This document shows, piece by piece, positions 4,772 through 12,442 of a stretch of DNA of 64,000 nt. Numbering within the stretch: the first letter of the stretch is position 1; each line of letters starts with the position of its first letter. The stretch is from Geothrix edaphica (GTDB taxonomy: Bacteria > Acidobacteriota > Holophagae > Holophagales > Holophagaceae). The notes under the pieces are model-generated. The model ran no database searches, was not told where the DNA came from, and worked only from the letters and a program-made list of their open reading frames with translations. A program made the position numbers and the translations under genes. The stretch covers positions 1,488,001 through 1,552,000 of the forward strand of contig NZ_BSDC01000001.1 of assembly GCF_030268045.1 (NCBI RefSeq), in the 5' to 3' direction.

Positions 4772-7700
4772 CTAGAGTCCCGGAGGAGTGTACCCCCCGC
4801 CGTCCACATCCACAAAGACCGGGTTGGTGACAGCGATGGGATAGATGCCCTTCATGATCTTGTTCCAGGGCGTTCCGGCCCGGTAGGCCCCGGTCGTGGC
4901 CAGGGGCACTCCGGCCTCGACCACCACCCAGGCATCCTTGCCGGCGGGCATGGCGATGCCGCTGAGGGTGGCCGTGCGCAGGAGGAAGTCCGAGGTGGAG
5001 GCCGTGAAGCTGGTCATCGGCACCACCTGGACGGCCCCGTTCACCACCACGCGCACCTCATCGACCGGCACCCAGCCCGCCCCGTAGAGCGAAATGGTGA
5101 TGGAGACGGTGGCGGCGGGCCCGGTCACCAGGCCACCCGGCCCGACTCCGTTGACGGTCACGTCGAGCAGGGGCCCCGTGGAGGCCACGGCCGCCCCGCT
5201 GCGGAGGGAGGTCAGCAGGGGATCGAGGGTCGTCTGGGACAGGGTGGATGCGAGCTTGAGGTAGGTGCGCGCCTGGCCCACGGGGGTGTCGAAGCTGAAC
5301 CGTGAGGCGGAGAGCCCGAGGCCCTTGGTGAAGGCGGCCGGCGTCTGCTGACTCAGCAGAGAGAACCAGTCGGCGCGGACGGCCTTGAACTCCGCAAACC
5401 ACGCACTGGGGTCCGCCGGGTCGCAACCCTCGGCCCGGATCAGTTCCAGGGCGTCGAAATCCCCATGGCGCTTGCCCAGGGACACGGGGCCGGTCTGGGT
5501 CCACCAGGCATTGGCGCCGGTCCCGATGGGCACCGCGGGATCGAAACCGCGGACCGTGAACAGCCCCTGGGGGCCCCGGGGCCGGTGGACGATGGTGTAG
5601 GAGCCCTCGGCCTGGGTGATGAAATCCGCCAGTGTCCAGCCCTTGGAGGGGCGAGCCCCGCCATTGCGGGCCCCGGTGGGGGCCGGGGTGAACAGGGCCG
5701 TGACGAAACCATCCGCCAGGGCCGAGCTGCGGGCGCCGACCACGAAGGGGTCGTTGCCGATGGGAGCGCGCTGGGCGTCTGTGACGGAAAGGTTTTCGAT
5801 CTCCGACCGGAATTCCACCCGCAGCGCGGAGGGATCCGTCAGCCTGTCTTCTTCGGTTCTGGCCACCGCCTGCACACCTTCAGCCAGGGCCGAGCTGAGC
5901 ATTTCACCCGGATTAAGGCCGCCGGTGGTGGCCTGGGTGGGCCCCGGGACATCGAAAGCCGTCCAGCCAGCCGGCAGGACCGGCGGGATGGTCACGAAGG
6001 CGTGGGTCACGTCCGCCTGGCCGTCGAATGACTTCACGGGCAGCGCGTCCAGGTGGGACAGCGGGCCGCGGGTGCCGTAGGCTAGGTAGTCCCCGGGAGC
6101 GAAGAAAGCCGTGGCGGACCCACCGGAATTCCGGAAGGACGTCCCGAAGATCTGGTTCCCGGCCGTGTACTGGTAGGCCCCGAGATTGGCGCCCCCGATC
6201 TCCTTGGCCTTGTAGACCTGGTTGAAGTAGCCGGCCAGCCTGCGCAGACGCTTCATGGAGGGATCCGGGGTTCCGCCCTGGCCTGCCAGGGTAATGCGGA
6301 GGGGGTTCAGGCCTCCCAGTTCCAGGGTGCCCGCCTGCCTGACCACGAAGTAGTGGGCCATCTGCTTCTGGTGGATCACGTTGCCCGTGGCATCCACGAC
6401 CTCCGTCCGCTCGGGGCTGAGGTTCTCCGCCAAGCGCCAGATCAGGCTCTTCGACGGCGTGATGGGCGTGGCCAGGTAGGGACGATTGGTGTCGGCGGTG
6501 TTGGTGCCGAGGTAGAGTCTGCTGCTCTGAGTGGCGTTGGTCGCGGTCAGCCGATATGGCTGGGTGGAGCCAGTCCCCCGGGTATCGGTGACGGCCGGGA
6601 GCAGGACGCCGATTGGTCCGCCGCTTGAGGGGATCTCGGTGGCCTCGCGCCACTCCACCCGTTCGGTCACCCAGTGGGAGGGATCCGCATCCGTGGCGGG
6701 ATCGGCATTCAGGCCCGTGTAGCGCTCGAACCGGAACTCCGTCTGGACCGGGCCACCGCGAGCCGCCGTCCCGAAAGAGTCGAACGTCAGAATGCCGAAG
6801 TCCCCGCCGCGGAGAGCGGTTCGCGCCTGCACCATCTCATTGAAGACCCCGGTGGCCTGGGCCGGTTCGATGCTGGCGATGCTGGGTCCCCCCAACAGGT
6901 ACAGGCGGCGCCGGTAGGTGATGGACTGCCCCGCGGGCAGGCCGGCGACGGCGGGGCTGCCCACGACCAGGCGGCCGGGGAAGCGGGGACGCAGCTCGGT
7001 GAGCGCGGGCTGGGGATCCGAGGCCACCAGCACCTGGTCCACATCCAGGGGCAGGATGCCCAGTGAGGAGTGGGCGTCCAGGGTGTCTCCGGCGGATTCC
7101 GCACCCATGAAAGCCACCATGGGGGCCACCACGCTGCTGGTAAGGGGCGCCGAGAAGTCCGATCCGGGGATTTCCACACCCCAGCTGCTGAGCGGCGTTC
7201 CGGTGAAGGTGGACACCGCCGGGACCACGAAGCGGAAGCCACCTCCGCGCTGGGACAGGAAGTCCCCGAGGCTCCGGATGGGAAGGGCCGTGGTCCCGCT
7301 GTTGGTGACCGTGGTCTCCAGGGTGAAGAACACATCCGCCTTGGTGAGCGTGATCCGGTGGACCACACTGACCCCCGCCACCCGGCCCTGGAGGTCCGTG
7401 GCCACACCGAGCTTGCCCTTGGGATCCAGCAGGTAGCCCTGCATGTCCAGGAACACCTCATTGACCCTGGTCCCCGGGGTGTAGCGATCAAAGACCAGCG
7501 GCAGATCCGGATCCTGGTTGGCCACGGGCCCGAGGCGCTCCACCATGTCCGTGGGCATGGACACCCGCTTGTAGTTCTGGTCCAGAGCCACGCTGCCCAT
7601 GTCGAGGATGGCGCCACCGGAGGGCGCGCCGAACTGGCCTTCCCGGTCCCCGAAGGCCGCCCCGTCCACCGCCAGCTGGACGGCATCGTTGCCGAGGTAG

Positions 7701-7918
7701 AAATCGCCGGGTCCCGAGGTGGCCTTCAGACCTGCCAGCCGGTCACCTCCGTTAGCGGGGATCTCTTCCACCGCCACCGTGGGCCGGGCCACACCCGAAG
7801 CCCTGAAGCAGCCTGTTCCGCCCGCGGCCAGGATCAGGGCCAGGGGGGCCAGGATCATCTGCAGGCGGCGGGAGGACAGACGGGCGGGAAGAACTGCGGG
7901 ATCAAGGCTCATGTTCAT
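4772..7918 (-). CDS. Very large lipoprotein with degenerate PHP (CehA/McbA-like) domain
   Basis: About 1,048 residues from the ATG at 7918 (in-frame ATGs at 7948 and 7912 are alternatives; no strong ribosome-binding site decides). A hydrophobic signal segment ends in AGGTGCF, a weak lipobox, so export and lipidation are likely. The first ~640 residues are beta-rich and match no family I recognise. Residues ~650-925 (counted from the 7948 ATG) follow the layout of CehA/McbA-type PHP metallohydrolases: a start like AGWxxADLHxHS, a segment like EGVxxxAxTDHN, then GDFDALEL, RADWFSLL, and a closing RTYL...SGxxVxSTGPLLDV. The metal-binding residues are replaced (FDVPGPT for DLHxHS, TEED for TDHN, LSASR for NSDSH). 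It is therefore probably a non-catalytic envelope protein. It lies just upstream of dnaB. Confidence 0.6.
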   Translation of the reverse strand: MNMSLDPAVLPARLSSRRLQMILAPLALILAAGGTGCFRASGVARPTVAVEEIPANGGDRLAGLKATSGPGDFYLGNDAVQLAVDGAAFGDREGQFGAPSGGAILDMGSVALDQNYKRVSMPTDMVERLGPVANQDPDLPLVFDRYTPGTRVNEVFLDMQGYLLDPKGKLGVATDLQGRVAGVSVVHRITLTKADVFFTLETTVTNSGTTALPIRSLGDFLSQRGGGFRFVVPAVSTFTGTPLSSWGVEIPGSDFSAPLTSSVVAPMVAFMGAESAGDTLDAHSSLGILPLDVDQVLVASDPQPALTELRPRFPGRLVVGSPAVAGLPAGQSITYRRRLYLLGGPSIASIEPAQATGVFNEMVQARTALRGGDFGILTFDSFGTAARGGPVQTEFRFERYTGLNADPATDADPSHWVTERVEWREATEIPSSGGPIGVLLPAVTDTRGTGSTQPYRLTATNATQSSRLYLGTNTADTNRPYLATPITPSKSLIWRLAENLSPERTEVVDATGNVIHQKQMAHYFVVRQAGTLELGGLNPLRITLAGQGGTPDPSMKRLRRLAGYFNQVYKAKEIGGANLGAYQYTAGNQIFGTSFRNSGGSATAFFAPGDYLAYGTRGPLSHLDALPVKSFDGQADVTHAFVTIPPVLPAGWTAFDVPGPTQATTGGLNPGEMLSSALAEGVQAVARTEEDRLTDPSALRVEFRSEIENLSVTDAQRAPIGNDPFVVGARSSALADGFVTALFTPAPTGARNGGARPSKGWTLADFITQAEGSYTIVHRPRGPQGLFTVRGFDPAVPIGTGANAWWTQTGPVSLGKRHGDFDALELIRAEGCDPADPSAWFAEFKAVRADWFSLLSQQTPAAFTKGLGLSASRFSFDTPVGQARTYLKLASTLSQTTLDPLLTSLRSGAAVASTGPLLDVTVNGVGPGGLVTGPAATVSITISLYGAGWVPVDEVRVVVNGAVQVVPMTSFTASTSDFLLRTATLSGIAMPAGKDAWVVVEAGVPLATTGAYRAGTPWNKIMKGIYPIAVTNPVFVDVDGGGYTPPGL

Positions 7919-7985
7919 CAAGGCGTCTCGTTCAGGCGGGAGGTCCATGGGGCTGGGGCGTGCGGAAGGTCTATGCTAACTCACG

Positions 7986-8669
7986 ATGCCGATCTCCGCC
8001 TTTCTTCATCGCTGCAGGCCGCACCGGCGGACCCTGCTCCTGGTCCTGACGCTGCCCCTCCTGGGAGATTTGCTCTGGACCCTGGGAAGGTTCCCAGCCA
8101 TGCACCACCAGCAAATCTACCGGGCAGAGGACATGCCGCCAGTGGGCGGCCCGGTGCTGGTGCTGGGGGCCGGTGTCTATGGCGACGGGGAGCCCACCGA
8201 ACTCCTCCAGGGGCGCCTCCGCACGGCCCTGGATCTCTACCGCACCGGGAAGGTCCGCTGGTTCCTGGTCTCCGGCGACAACCGGCACCCTTCGTACAAT
8301 GAACCCCAGGCCATGCGCCGCTGGCTGGTGAAGCAGGGGGTTCCCCCCACCCACATCGTCAGCGACTACGCGGGGCTCCGCACCTGGGACAGCCTCAAGC
8401 GCGCCCAGGCCGTCTTCGGCCAGCGACAGGTGGTCATCGTCACGTCGGATTTCCACCTGCCTCGGGCCCTCTACCTGGCGGACCGCCTCGGGCTCCAGGC
8501 CTGGGGCGTCCCCGCCTCCACCGAGGACCGGCCGCAGGTGAACCGGTTCCGCTATTGGACCCGGGAGTACATCGCCCGGCACCTGGCCCTCTGGGACGCC
8601 TGGTTCCCGCCGGATGTCAGGCTCGGCCCCAGGGAGCCGACGCCCGACGACTGGGACCCGGCTTCATGA
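7986..8669 (+). CDS. DUF218 (SanA/YdcF-like) membrane-anchored protein
   Basis: 227 residues. One hydrophobic segment near residues 17-33 is followed by a DUF218 domain: VLVLGAGVYGDGEPTELLQGRL, a middle LVSGDNRHPSYNEPQAM, and VIVTSDFHLPRALYLADRLG. This is the SanA/YdcF group, linked in enterobacteria to envelope permeability and vancomycin resistance, with no established enzymatic reaction. The gene starts within 70 bp of the divergent lipoprotein gene. Its stop overlaps the thiolase start (ATGA), so the two are translationally coupled. Confidence 0.8.
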   Translation: MPISAFLHRCRPHRRTLLLVLTLPLLGDLLWTLGRFPAMHHQQIYRAEDMPPVGGPVLVLGAGVYGDGEPTELLQGRLRTALDLYRTGKVRWFLVSGDNRHPSYNEPQAMRRWLVKQGVPPTHIVSDYAGLRTWDSLKRAQAVFGQRQVVIVTSDFHLPRALYLADRLGLQAWGVPASTEDRPQVNRFRYWTREYIARHLALWDAWFPPDVRLGPREPTPDDWDPAS

Positions 8670-9808
8670 GGAATTCCGGCGATCTGCTGATCCTTGCCGC
8701 GGGGCGCCTGCCCCAGGGCCGCTACGGCGGAAGCCTGGCAGGCCTGGGGGCCGTGTCCCTCGGGCTCTCGGCGGTGGAAGGCCTGCTCTCCCGGCCCGCC
8801 CTGCCCCGCCCGGGCAGCCTCCTCTGGGGCATGGCCCGGAGCCACACCCAGGGCATGAACCCGGCCCGCACCCTGGCCCTGAGGGCCGGCCTCCCCCATG
8901 ACACCTCCGCCTTCACCGTGAACATGGCCTGCGGATCCAGCCTCCAGGCCCTCCTCCTCGCCGCCCAGAGCCTGAGGGGCGGCGCCGCGGCGCCCATCCT
9001 CGTGGGGGGCAGCGAGGCCATGTCCGATACGCCCCACCTGGTGCCGGGCCTCCGCTGGGGCTTCCGCATGGGCCACCGCCAGCTCCCGGATGTCATGCAC
9101 CATGACGGCCTGCGTTGCCCGGTGACCGGCCTGCTCATGGGCGAGACCATCGAACGGCTCGCGGCCAAGCGGGGCATCACGCGGCTGGAGGCCGATGCCT
9201 GGGCGATGGAGAGCCACCACCGGGCTGCGGGAGCCGATTTCCACGCGGAGCTGCTGCCCCATCCGAATCTTGATCGCGATGAAGCCATCCGGCCGGAGAT
9301 CACCCCCGAGGCCCTGGCCCGCCTCGCACCGGTCTTCGATCCACAGGGCCAGGTCACGGCGGGGAATGCCTCCGCCCTGTCCGATGGCGCTGCCGCGCTC
9401 CTCCTGGCCCGGCGGGACCAGGCGGGCGATACCAAACCCCTGGCCCGGATCCGGGCGTGGAGCGAAGCGGGTGTGGACCCGCTGGACATGGGCGAGGCGC
9501 CCGTCCCCGCCGTGCGGCGCCTGCTAGAGGTCCAGGGCCTGACCGTGGCCGACATCGACCTGTGGGAGCTCAATGAGGCCTTCGCCGCCCAGCTCCTCGT
9601 CTGCCAGCGGCAGGTGGGCCTTCCGGAGGATCGCCTGAACGTGGCCGGGGGCGGCGTGGCCCTGGGGCATCCCATCGGGGCCACCGGCGCGCGCATCGTG
9701 GTCACCCTGGTCCACCAACTGAGGGCCCGTGGCGGCGGCCTGGGCGTGGCCACCCTCGGCATCGGGGGTGGCCTGGGCCTGGCGCTGCTGATCGAAGCAG
9801 AGCCCTAG
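8666..9808 (+). CDS. Thiolase-family protein lacking the second catalytic cysteine
   Basis: 380 residues, typical of acetyl-CoA C-acetyltransferases. The acyl-accepting cysteine is present (C89, VNMACGSS), as are the NEAFA motif and the active-site histidine (H335, GHPIGATG). The C-terminal motif normally reads CIGGG, with the cysteine that acts as acid/base. Here it reads GIGGG (G365, codon GGC). Without that residue ordinary condensation or thiolysis should be badly impaired, so the protein may use another nucleophile or do another Claisen-type or acyl-transfer step. The start overlaps the DUF218 stop by 4 bp (ATGA), which fixes the ATG at 8666. The nearby acyl-ligase fusion gene suggests lipid metabolism. 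Confidence 0.75.
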   Translation: MRNSGDLLILAAGRLPQGRYGGSLAGLGAVSLGLSAVEGLLSRPALPRPGSLLWGMARSHTQGMNPARTLALRAGLPHDTSAFTVNMACGSSLQALLLAAQSLRGGAAAPILVGGSEAMSDTPHLVPGLRWGFRMGHRQLPDVMHHDGLRCPVTGLLMGETIERLAAKRGITRLEADAWAMESHHRAAGADFHAELLPHPNLDRDEAIRPEITPEALARLAPVFDPQGQVTAGNASALSDGAAALLLARRDQAGDTKPLARIRAWSEAGVDPLDMGEAPVPAVRRLLEVQGLTVADIDLWELNEAFAAQLLVCQRQVGLPEDRLNVAGGGVALGHPIGATGARIVVTLVHQLRARGGGLGVATLGIGGGLGLALLIEAEP

Positions 9809-9811
9809 CGC

Positions 9812-12442
9812 CTAGGCCGGCTCTCCAGTCAGGAGCGCCTTGAGGGCCCGGTAGTCCGTCTTGCCGGTGCCCAGGGTGGGGATCTGGTCGATCTGCCGGA
9901 CCACGCGGATGTTGTGCAGGGAGGAGAGGCCCGCCGCGCGGATCACCGCGTTGGCGTCGTCGCGGCCGATGCCGGCCACGGAGAAGAGGATCAGGTCGGG
10001 GTTGAGATCCTCGGTGGTGGCCTCCACCGCCAGCAAGGGCTCGATCTCATCCTCGCCCTGGAAGCGCTGGGACAGGGCCTCCTCGATGGCCGGCAGGGAG
10101 ACCATCTCGCCTCCGAGCTTCACGAAGCGCTTGAGGCGGCCGGAGAACACCAGGACACCGCGGTCCTGGAACACCAGGTCCCCCGTGCGGTACCAGGACC
10201 GGCCCTCGAAGGTCTCGAAGGGGGACTCCACGTCCGGGTTGAGGTAGCCGGAGAAGATGCTGGGGCCGCGGACGAGCAGCATGCCGGGCTGGCCCGGCTG
10301 CACCCGGCGGCCGGTCTCGAGGTCGACGATGGCCCATTCCACCGACACCAGGGGCTTCCCGATGCTGCCGTTCCGCAGGTCCTCTTCGCGGTTCACCGAA
10401 ACCACGGGAGAGCACTCCGTGATGCCGTAGCCCTCGAGCACGGTGGTCTTCGGCCAGCGCCGGGCCAGGGTGGCGTAGACCGGTTCGGGGCACTTCTCCG
10501 CGCCCGATACCACAATGCGCAGGGATTCCAGGTGCCGGTCCTCCGCCACGCGGAGGATGCCGCCCAGAAAGGTGGGCGTACCCACCAGCAGGGTGGCGTG
10601 GTAGGCCTCGATGAGGCGGGCCAGCATCCTGCCCTCGGTGGGATTGGGATGGTAGACCACCCGCAAGCCGAGCAGCATCGGCAGGATGGTGGTGGTGGTC
10701 AGGCCGAAGGCATGGAAGGGCGGCAGGCAGCCCATGACCCGCTCGTCCTCGCGGAACCGGATGGCCTGGGTGATGTCGCGGATGTTGGCGAGGATGTTCC
10801 CGTGGGTGAGGGGCACGGCCTTCGGATGGCTCTCGCTGCCACTGGTGAAGAGCACCGCGGCCGTGGCCGGAGCCGCGGAGGCATCGAGGGAGGTCCAGCC
10901 CAGGCGGGCCCGCAGGGCCGCGGACAGTTTCGTGGCCAGCGAGATGCGCCTGCCCACGACGTCCAGCAGCACCAGGCGGTCCTTGACGGCCGACAGATCC
11001 ACGCTCTGGGCCTCGAGCCGGTTGATCAGCGTGGACACGCTGATCACGTGCTTCACCCCCACCAGGTCGAGGCCATAGGCCATGCTGCGGACCCCGGCCG
11101 TCCAGTTCACCAGCACGGGCGTCTTGCCCGCGAACAGCAGGGCCAGGTAGAGGATGCTGGCGCCCCCGGAGGCCGGCAGCATCAGGCCCACGTGGGAGCC
11201 TTCCAGGCCCTCGAAGATGGGCTTCAGCACCAGGATGGCCGTGATGACATCCCGGTAGGTCTTCACGCCGCCCAGCTGGTCGGCCAGGACCACCCGGCCC
11301 GGGTCGCGCCGCGCCTGCTTGAGGAAGACCTCGGGGATCGAGTCGCCGTCAGGCATCTCGATGGGCAGATCCGTGCGCGAATGGAACCAGGCATGGGGCA
11401 CGGCCTTCAGCTCGCCCTGGCGGAGGGAGACGGCCGCGCCGGTGGCCGCCAGCAGCAGGTCGCCCACGGTCTGGAGGGAGGCGGGATCGGCGCAGGGGTA
11501 GCCGAAGGCCTGCTCGAGCCAGAGCTCAAGCTCCCGATGGCCCAGGACATCGAGCCCCAGGTCCTTCACCAGGTGGTGATGTTCCTGGATGTCCGAATGG
11601 CCCGTGACCGCCTGCAGGTGGCGCCGCACCGCATCCCGGACCTGGGGCGGCACGTTGCGGGGGTTGCCCTCCACCCTGGGCCGGGGCGGCTCGGGGAGGG
11701 TGCGGGGCGCATGGTCCTTCCAGATCAGGTAGGGGACGAAGGTCCGCGGCGTGGCGTCCGCATTCAGGTGGGCCTCCAGGACCCGGTTGACGGCCTCGCG
11801 GTCCGCGCCCGCCGGGAGGTCCGGGACCTCCTCGAAGGTGACCTGGACCTCGCGCCGGGGCATGAAGAACAGGGCGTTGGCCAGCAGGTAGCCCAGCCCC
11901 TTGAGCAGCTCCACGCCGGTGGATGGACGTCGTCCGGAAGCCGCGCTGAAGCGGCTGCCCCAGAGCCCGCCGAGCCGCACCACCACCACCCGGGTGCCGG
12001 GGGCCTGGCGGAGGATCGCGGCCACGGCGCTGTTGTCGGCGAGGTCCTGGGTCTTCTGCCGCGCCAGGCGGGCCCCGGGAAACATGAGGAGGTTCCGCCC
12101 CGACGCCAGAAGGCGGGCATGGGCCGCCAGCTCCAGGTCCAGCCTCTCCCGGGTCTGCGCACCGTGGTCCGCGGGATCCGGCAGGGGCCTGGCGCCCAGC
12201 GCCCAGGCCAGCCAGCGCAGAGGGGCGGAGGCGCCATGGTCCCGGCCCACCACCAGGACCGGGGCGAAGCGGCCGTGCAGCTCGGCGCCCAGCAGGAAGG
12301 GATCCACGAGGGTCGGATGGTTGGCCAGGAACAGGATTCCGGGGGTTCCGGCAGCGGGAACGGCCTCCAGCCCCCCGGTATGGATTCGGTAGCGCAGCCG
12401 CAACAGCGGCCGACCCAGGGCGCGGATCAGGGAGTCGATCAT
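9812..12442 (-). CDS. Aas-like fusion: acyltransferase + carrier-like domain + acyl-CoA/ACP ligase
   Basis: 876 residues with three parts. Residues ~1-230 are a PlsC-type glycerolipid acyltransferase with the H(x4)D motif as NHPTLVDP (H42, D47) and a weaker glycerol-binding region (MFPGARLARQ). Residues ~265-335 resemble an acyl-carrier domain (DLGLDVLGHREL), but the serine that would carry phosphopantetheine is Val299. Residues ~365-870 are an AMP-binding adenylating domain with the P-loop-like FTSGSESHPKAVPLTHGN (~532-549) and GYGITECSPV. E. coli Aas combines an acyltransferase and an acyl-ACP synthetase to re-acylate lysophospholipids, and this protein probably does the same at the inner membrane. 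It converges on the thiolase gene with a 3 bp gap. Confidence 0.8.
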   Translation of the reverse strand: MIDSLIRALGRPLLRLRYRIHTGGLEAVPAAGTPGILFLANHPTLVDPFLLGAELHGRFAPVLVVGRDHGASAPLRWLAWALGARPLPDPADHGAQTRERLDLELAAHARLLASGRNLLMFPGARLARQKTQDLADNSAVAAILRQAPGTRVVVVRLGGLWGSRFSAASGRRPSTGVELLKGLGYLLANALFFMPRREVQVTFEEVPDLPAGADREAVNRVLEAHLNADATPRTFVPYLIWKDHAPRTLPEPPRPRVEGNPRNVPPQVRDAVRRHLQAVTGHSDIQEHHHLVKDLGLDVLGHRELELWLEQAFGYPCADPASLQTVGDLLLAATGAAVSLRQGELKAVPHAWFHSRTDLPIEMPDGDSIPEVFLKQARRDPGRVVLADQLGGVKTYRDVITAILVLKPIFEGLEGSHVGLMLPASGGASILYLALLFAGKTPVLVNWTAGVRSMAYGLDLVGVKHVISVSTLINRLEAQSVDLSAVKDRLVLLDVVGRRISLATKLSAALRARLGWTSLDASAAPATAAVLFTSGSESHPKAVPLTHGNILANIRDITQAIRFREDERVMGCLPPFHAFGLTTTTILPMLLGLRVVYHPNPTEGRMLARLIEAYHATLLVGTPTFLGGILRVAEDRHLESLRIVVSGAEKCPEPVYATLARRWPKTTVLEGYGITECSPVVSVNREEDLRNGSIGKPLVSVEWAIVDLETGRRVQPGQPGMLLVRGPSIFSGYLNPDVESPFETFEGRSWYRTGDLVFQDRGVLVFSGRLKRFVKLGGEMVSLPAIEEALSQRFQGEDEIEPLLAVEATTEDLNPDLILFSVAGIGRDDANAVIRAAGLSSLHNIRVVRQIDQIPTLGTGKTDYRALKALLTGEPA

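Follow-up and report, generated by a model that had tools for sequence, protein, structure and literature searches.

Genome organization at the thiolase locus

The window analyzed here is a stretch of 64,000 nucleotides from the genome of Geothrix edaphica (assembly GCF_030268045.1, contig NZ_BSDC01000001.1). A predicted thiolase gene in its left part is preceded by a DUF218 gene transcribed in the same direction, which overlaps the thiolase start by four bases (ATGA), and is followed by a convergently transcribed gene for a fused acyltransferase, carrier-like and AMP-ligase protein (AAS-like). The coordinates of these genes and of the active-site codons are given in Table 1. Seven neighbors of the thiolase in the window were examined; the DUF218, AAS-like, ABC ATPase, carbonic anhydrase and CehA/McbA-like products were assigned by profile and the rest by reading of the open reading frames. 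A protein of 1058 residues encoded leftwards at 4772-7948 has, by eye, a lipoprotein-like start and is a constant neighbor in Holophagaceae; it has no Pfam match, and its C-terminus weakly resembles CehA/McbA metallohydrolases (50.9 bits, with a cut-off of 80).

Table 1. Predicted genes and active-site codons at the thiolase locus, in window coordinates
Feature	Coordinates	Strand	Basis or conservation
DUF218 protein (SanA/ElyC-like, below the SanA cut-off)	7986..8669	+	PF02698, 101.8 bits
Thiolase with Gly at the CxG site (G-type), 380 aa plus stop	8666..9808	+	TIGR01930, Pfam, AF2 and structure matches
C89 codon, nucleophile, CxS motif (NMACGSS)	8930..8932	+	C in 59/59 G-type sequences covering the site
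L157 codon, place of Zoogloea H156	9134..9136	+	L in 58/58 G-type sequences
N303 codon, NEAF motif (ELNEAF)	9572..9574	+	N in 61/61 sequences
H335 codon, GHP motif (GHPIG)	9668..9670	+	H in 61/61 sequences
G365 codon (GGC), place of the acid/base Cys (Zoogloea Cys378)	9758..9760	+	G in 57/57 distinct sequences
AAS-like acyltransferase/carrier-like/AMP-ligase fusion, convergent neighbor	9812..12442	-	PF00501, 222.2 bits; PF01553, 27.4 bits

The thiolase gene product matches the profile TIGR01930 with 367.5 bits (cut-off 240.55) and the Pfam families Thiolase_N and Thiolase_C with 193.5 and 154.7 bits, respectively. Its AF2 model has a pLDDT of 94.0 and a pTM of 0.94, and the closest solved structures, among the matches listed, are biosynthetic thiolases (VIA Z 57.0-58.6, about 40-46% identity). 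The protein is a thiolase by descent and fold. It has in common with the biosynthetic thiolases of Zoogloea ramigera, E. coli (5f0v) and Bacillus cereus (7cw4) the full-length fold, C89, and the NEAF and GHP motifs, and, by motif, most of the pocket wall (F, M, S and I residues; PMC7337054), but differs from them in having Gly for the CxG cysteine, Leu for H156 and Met for Q64, and in the loss of a hairpin. Among the features of classical thiolases (TIGR01930), the profile match, the CxS cysteine, NEAF and GHP are all present; the acid/base cysteine of CxG is absent, which sets the protein apart from that group.

Replacement of the acid/base cysteine by glycine

The first-pass annotation had described C89, NEAF and GHP as intact and the CIGGG motif as changed to GIGGG, and this is confirmed both by the translation, in which residues 365-369 are GIGGG, and by a HMMER alignment that places G365 on the Cys of CIGGG in the E. 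coli thiolase 5f0v. In the Zoogloea enzyme, Cys378 is described as the residue that gives a proton to the alpha carbon and takes one from it (PMC3406046). The 3.16 Mb host genome codes for three further thiolases (L002, L003 and L004), all with the CxG cysteine.

Glycine is present at position 365 in all 61 Holophagaceae sequences of a first pass in which duplicates were counted, and, once identical sequences are removed, in all 57 that cover the site, one of the 58 stopping short of it; we refer to these proteins as G-type, and to thiolases with the cysteine as Cys-type. It had been envisaged that orthologs might have Cys here, but none of the 57 distinct orthologs covering the site does. Among 124 other thiolases, which are relatives picked by similarity and no random thiolase sample, the CxG site is Cys in 121, Gly in one and a gap in two. 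The Gly365 codon is GGC in 46 sequences, GGG in four, GGA in four and GGT in three, and the use of four codons across distinct sequences rules out a read error or the decay of a single strain as the cause. That the glycine is a sequencing or assembly error in the window genome can thus be given practically no credence. Glycine is fixed in the Holophagaceae clade, and the second catalytic cysteine has been permanently lost.

The single Gly among the 124 other thiolases belongs to a Burkholderiales MAG (L108:4869-6113). This thiolase (TIGR01930, 394.6 bits) reads CCTIGGGGG around the CxG site, with Gly aligned to the cysteine, and is apparently of independent origin from the Holophagaceae clade; the same stretch also carries a second thiolase of the Cys-type.

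Distribution and genomic context in Holophagaceae

A family-wide search at E <=1e-100 finds the G-type thiolase in 56 of 77 Holophagaceae genomes, and a DNA pattern adds G015, with a broken copy, and G068, where the gene lies in two contig pieces, giving 58 genomes. The exact pattern (GHPxG...GIGGG) has matches in 58 of 93 genomes of the class, all Holophagaceae, one match (G023, contig 11) being no thiolase. A looser pattern applied to 396 genomes of the phylum gave no thiolase-like match outside Holophagaceae, as judged by eye among the matches listed. No G-type thiolase was found by pattern in 50 genomes of other phyla, a weak result since the pattern is blind to Leu CTN codons at the second place and to the L108 gene, and no plasmid-borne relative was found at E 1e-60. 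The G-type thiolase is absent from one genome of the genus Geothrix that is 99% complete (G032) and from four genomes of genus g9, in which the DUF218 and AAS-like genes stand adjacent; given its absence from a near-complete genome and several sister genomes, the gene is dispensable.

The DUF218 gene is located directly upstream of the thiolase and on the same strand in all 56 loci that hold both genes (59 were examined, the remaining three being cut by contig ends). The four-base overlap is present in 46 of the 56, counted with the thiolase start at the place of Met1 in the window; one overlap value of minus 137 (L248) carries no meaning, since the gene there is incomplete. DUF218 itself is present in all 14 Holophagaceae genomes searched, some of which are without the thiolase, and was not found in the two genomes searched from another family of the class. 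With a variable slot behind the DUF218 gene, the thiolase is best described as an accessory gene, predicted from the gene arrangement to be translationally coupled to a core envelope-type gene.

The slot itself, between the DUF218 and ABC ATPase genes (8666-12442 in the window), is a presence/absence site that can hold the thiolase, the AAS-like gene, both, or neither. Both are found in the window and in G068 (two contig pieces), the thiolase only in G005, G007 and G011, the AAS-like gene only in the four g9 genomes, and neither in G032. The AAS-like gene is present in 9 of 22 Holophagaceae genomes searched, including genomes without the thiolase. It was rejected as an obligatory partner, being missing from the three thiolase-bearing Geothrix genomes and present in the g9 genomes without thiolase, and because it is not always present we claim no shared function for the two genes. 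In the carrier-like domain of the AAS-like protein, the Ser expected to bear phosphopantetheine (codon 299, approximately 11546-11548) is lost in all nine Geothrix-genus sequences examined, with Val, Ala or Thr in its place, and the usual DSL is found in seven of seven sequences from two sister genera. Five of the nine AAS-like matches in other genomes (L261, L262, L263, L265 and L266) have one in-frame stop within the match, possibly the gene end.

Descent and selection

In a tree of 139 sequences, the 18 sampled G-type thiolases form one clade (SH-aLRT 100) on a stem of 1.03 changes per column, and in a careful tree of 58 sequences, 14 G-type thiolases again form one clade (support 100/100) on a stem of 0.94 changes per column. 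The change from cysteine to glycine took place a single time, in the ancestor of a Holophagaceae clade, and has been retained since.

The nearest Cys-type group by identity consists of 21 sequences with a CxSGG motif, mostly from Acidobacteriota (L184-L201 and L038-L040), which are among the closest to the G-type proteins at about 45-53% identity. Most of them share the loop DG[FL].[CD]PL...M with the G-type thiolases and they have no His at the H156 place, but unlike the G-type all 21 keep the cysteine. Their sisterhood to the G-type clade has an SH-aLRT of 82 in the 139-sequence tree and is recovered in 30% of 200 bootstrap trees for the 58 sequences, and the sister group of the G-type clade remains unsettled. 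No DUF218, DnaB, AAS-like or other reference neighbor was matched at E 1e-6 in the 21 CxSGG stretches; in one of these (L184), the neighboring genes look by eye like a CoA-transferase pair and a 3-hydroxyacyl-CoA dehydrogenase.

Compared with the 21 CxSGG sequences, the G-type thiolases have a different residue fixed (at least 95%) at 23 columns, including H60, T61, M64, T69, D121, E277, W300, G365 and G367. Eight residues after position 200, forming a hairpin in the loop domain, are missing in 18 of 18 G-type sequences and present in 36 of 38 others, the two exceptions being Cys-type. Given where it lies and the lysines and arginines it contains, the lost hairpin is probably what has been described in the Zoogloea enzyme as the cationic loop (PMC3406046). 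A further change affects the place of H156, to which the anchoring of the pantetheine arm is ascribed in biosynthetic thiolases (PMC7337054). The G-type thiolases have Leu there, and only 21 of the 124 other thiolases have His; since a residue other than His is common at this place among Cys-type thiolases, the change alone says little.

The dN/dS values (NG86) are 0.11-0.24 in 11 G-type pairs, compared with 0.10-0.18 in six pairs of Cys paralogs, which bears out the claim of the first-pass annotation that selection has kept the rest of the protein; among 54 full-length G-type sequences, 113 of the 380 columns do not vary. These data bear on whether the protein could be a non-catalytic or regulatory acyl-CoA-binding protein that is on its way out and is kept for another role. 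Such a role would fit a dispensable gene, absent from G032 and the four g9 genomes and broken in G015, whose product has lost the loop-domain hairpin, but C89, N303 and H335 show strict conservation and the dN/dS values are as low as those of the Cys paralogs, and we regard such a role as quite improbable.

Candidate replacement residues

The G-type thiolase of the window has gained no new cysteine; C89, C151 and C313 are the whole set, and C151 and C313 are invariant in all 54 full-length G-type sequences. The option that a second nearby cysteine fills the role, left open in the first-pass annotation, finds little support: E. coli 5f0v has a Cys at the C151 place as well, together with an intact CxG, so that C151 is not a clade-specific replacement.

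Three other residues, E277, H60 and D121, are candidates for a substitute base, which may lie near C89. H60 is found in 55 of 55 G-type sequences and 2 of 124 others, D121 in 56 of 56 and 0 of 124, and E277 in 55 of 57 and 2 of 124. E277 sits in the segment that matches residues 280-292 of the C. acetobutylicum thiolase, described as packing against the catalytic cysteine loop (PMC4595758). However, its place is occupied by Ala and Arg in two G-type sequences (L136 and L137) and by Glu in two Cys-type sequences, and with exceptions in both groups E277 is neither necessary nor specific, which weakens it as a new base.

The enzyme might still be a thiolase, perhaps a weaker or slower one, carrying out thiolysis or Claisen condensation with bound water or another residue, such as E277 (beside the VMG loop) or H60 of the partner subunit, moving the proton. 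We consider this unlikely, given the exceptions at E277 and the lack of an acid nearest the place of Glu117 in OleA, which we take, by spacing to the nucleophile, to be M64-N65-P66. In its favor, the fold, C89, N303 and H335 match those of biosynthetic thiolases, H60 is invariant, E277 belongs to the segment next to the catalytic cysteine loop, and SCP2-thiolases and OleA, as described, show that the base can move within the superfamily (PMC7682436, PMC7064751).

Comparison with other thiolase-fold enzymes

A decarboxylating condensing enzyme similar to KAS III, in which acyl-Cys89 would be attacked by the carbanion of a malonyl-thioester after loss of CO2, was also considered. Cys, Asn and His suffice for such a reaction without a second cysteine, and exactly those residues are kept in the G-type thiolases; furthermore, the matching place in the host FabH proteins is, by eye, Ala (SAFGAG, TALGSG). 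Nonetheless, the Asn and His occur in thiolase order (NEAF, GHP), an hhalign comparison of the G-type profile with FabH aligned residues 79-125 only (14% probability), and the host has its own FabH above the cut-off together with further FabH-like matches, leaving no gap for the G-type protein to fill. A role as substitute for FabH was rejected because of the host's own FabH, and we find a KAS III-like condensation improbable. A FabH profile has five matches in the host genome, none at the thiolase locus (contig positions 1496666-1497805), and the Pfam family ACP_syn_III matches G-type residues 83-121 only, with 24.8 bits against a cut-off of 24.

OleA is not known to have the CxG cysteine. 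Where it has Glu117-Pro, the thiolase of the window has, by spacing, Met64-Asn65-Pro66 and no acid. OleA is described as taking its base from the partner subunit, a Glu117 with Pro behind it, for Claisen chemistry (PMC7064751). SCP2-thiolases are described as having no CxGGG cysteine and as using the Cys of an HDCF motif instead (PMC7682436), whereas the thiolase of the window has ELNEAF at that place. TLP1 of Mycobacterium smegmatis, with about 15% identity to the Zoogloea thiolase, has NGG for CxG (PMC3406046) and so shares the loss of the cysteine, but its nucleophile, NEAF and GHP are also replaced, and all three are kept in the G-type. By the features tested, the predicted G-type protein is thus not an SCP2-thiolase, OleA, TLP1 or KAS III enzyme.

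PhlC, of the Pseudomonas protegens PpATase, is described as a thiolase-fold protein with acyl-Cys88 and His347 that performs acyl transfer and no condensation, functioning in a complex with PhlA and the DUF35-type PhlB and with Tyr298 and His56 in its pocket (PMC6392133). The G-type thiolases resemble it in fold and in a residue pattern that appears compatible with acyl-Cys transfer without the CxG cysteine, but no DUF35-type partner is found among the seven neighbors scanned in the window. A literature search, with most subscription journals lying outside it, found nothing on a C378G or otherwise Gly-replaced thiolase or on a Geothrix thiolase.

A possible acyl transferase

The G-type thiolase probably carries out a changed reaction. 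The residues kept are those for acyl uptake and oxyanion stabilization and the residue lost is the proton mover, and an acyl transferase is the simplest reading of this pattern; we tentatively favor, at somewhat less than even confidence, a thiolase-fold enzyme that forms acyl-Cys89 and passes the acyl group on without proton transfer of the Cys378 type. Cys89 would be acylated by a CoA (or carrier) thioester, backbone amides would hold the acyl oxygen, and N303/H335 would provide a second oxyanion hole. Since position 365 offers no thiol, the usual deprotonation or protonation of the acetyl-CoA alpha carbon would be unlikely in the second half-reaction, and the acyl group would most likely be handed to an already activated nucleophile, by analogy with PhlC and phloroglucinols.

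Consistent with an acyl transferase are the retention of C89, N303 and H335, the fixed glycine, purifying selection, and a long stem followed by conservation; the loss of the hairpin and the change of the H156 anchor to Leu; and the lack of an HDCF cysteine, a Glu-Pro or a gained cysteine. The host has three Cys-type thiolases left for ordinary beta-ketothiolase work, and PhlC, described as transferring an acyl group from its cysteine with no classical base, offers a precedent (PMC6392133). Against it stand E277, H60 and D121, which may lie near C89. The coupling to DUF218, an envelope-type gene, in 56 of 56 loci also supports the acyl transferase and is a weak hint at an envelope or lipid-linked function; counting against a partnership, DUF218 is present in all 14 Holophagaceae genomes searched, including some that have no thiolase of this type.

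We put forward with greater doubt the reading that a CIGGG thiolase lineage has given rise to a new enzyme, one that transfers acyl groups or condenses them with decarboxylation and uses only Cys, Asn and His, the changes being one Cys-to-Gly step and the loss of the H156 anchor and loop hairpin. Variants of Cys378 in the Zoogloea enzyme were reportedly described in 1991, and if this reading is true, the Holophagaceae proteins would be a natural counterpart of such laboratory variants and a further route around the second cysteine, besides those of SCP2-thiolase, OleA and PhlC.

Implications

Automatic annotation will name the G-type protein an acetyl-CoA acetyltransferase and so give models of Geothrix a beta-ketothiolase step that may not exist. 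A clade in which the Cys, Asn and His are kept and only the acid/base cysteine is lost is a clean natural test of the need for that residue, and also of how transferases arise from thiolases.
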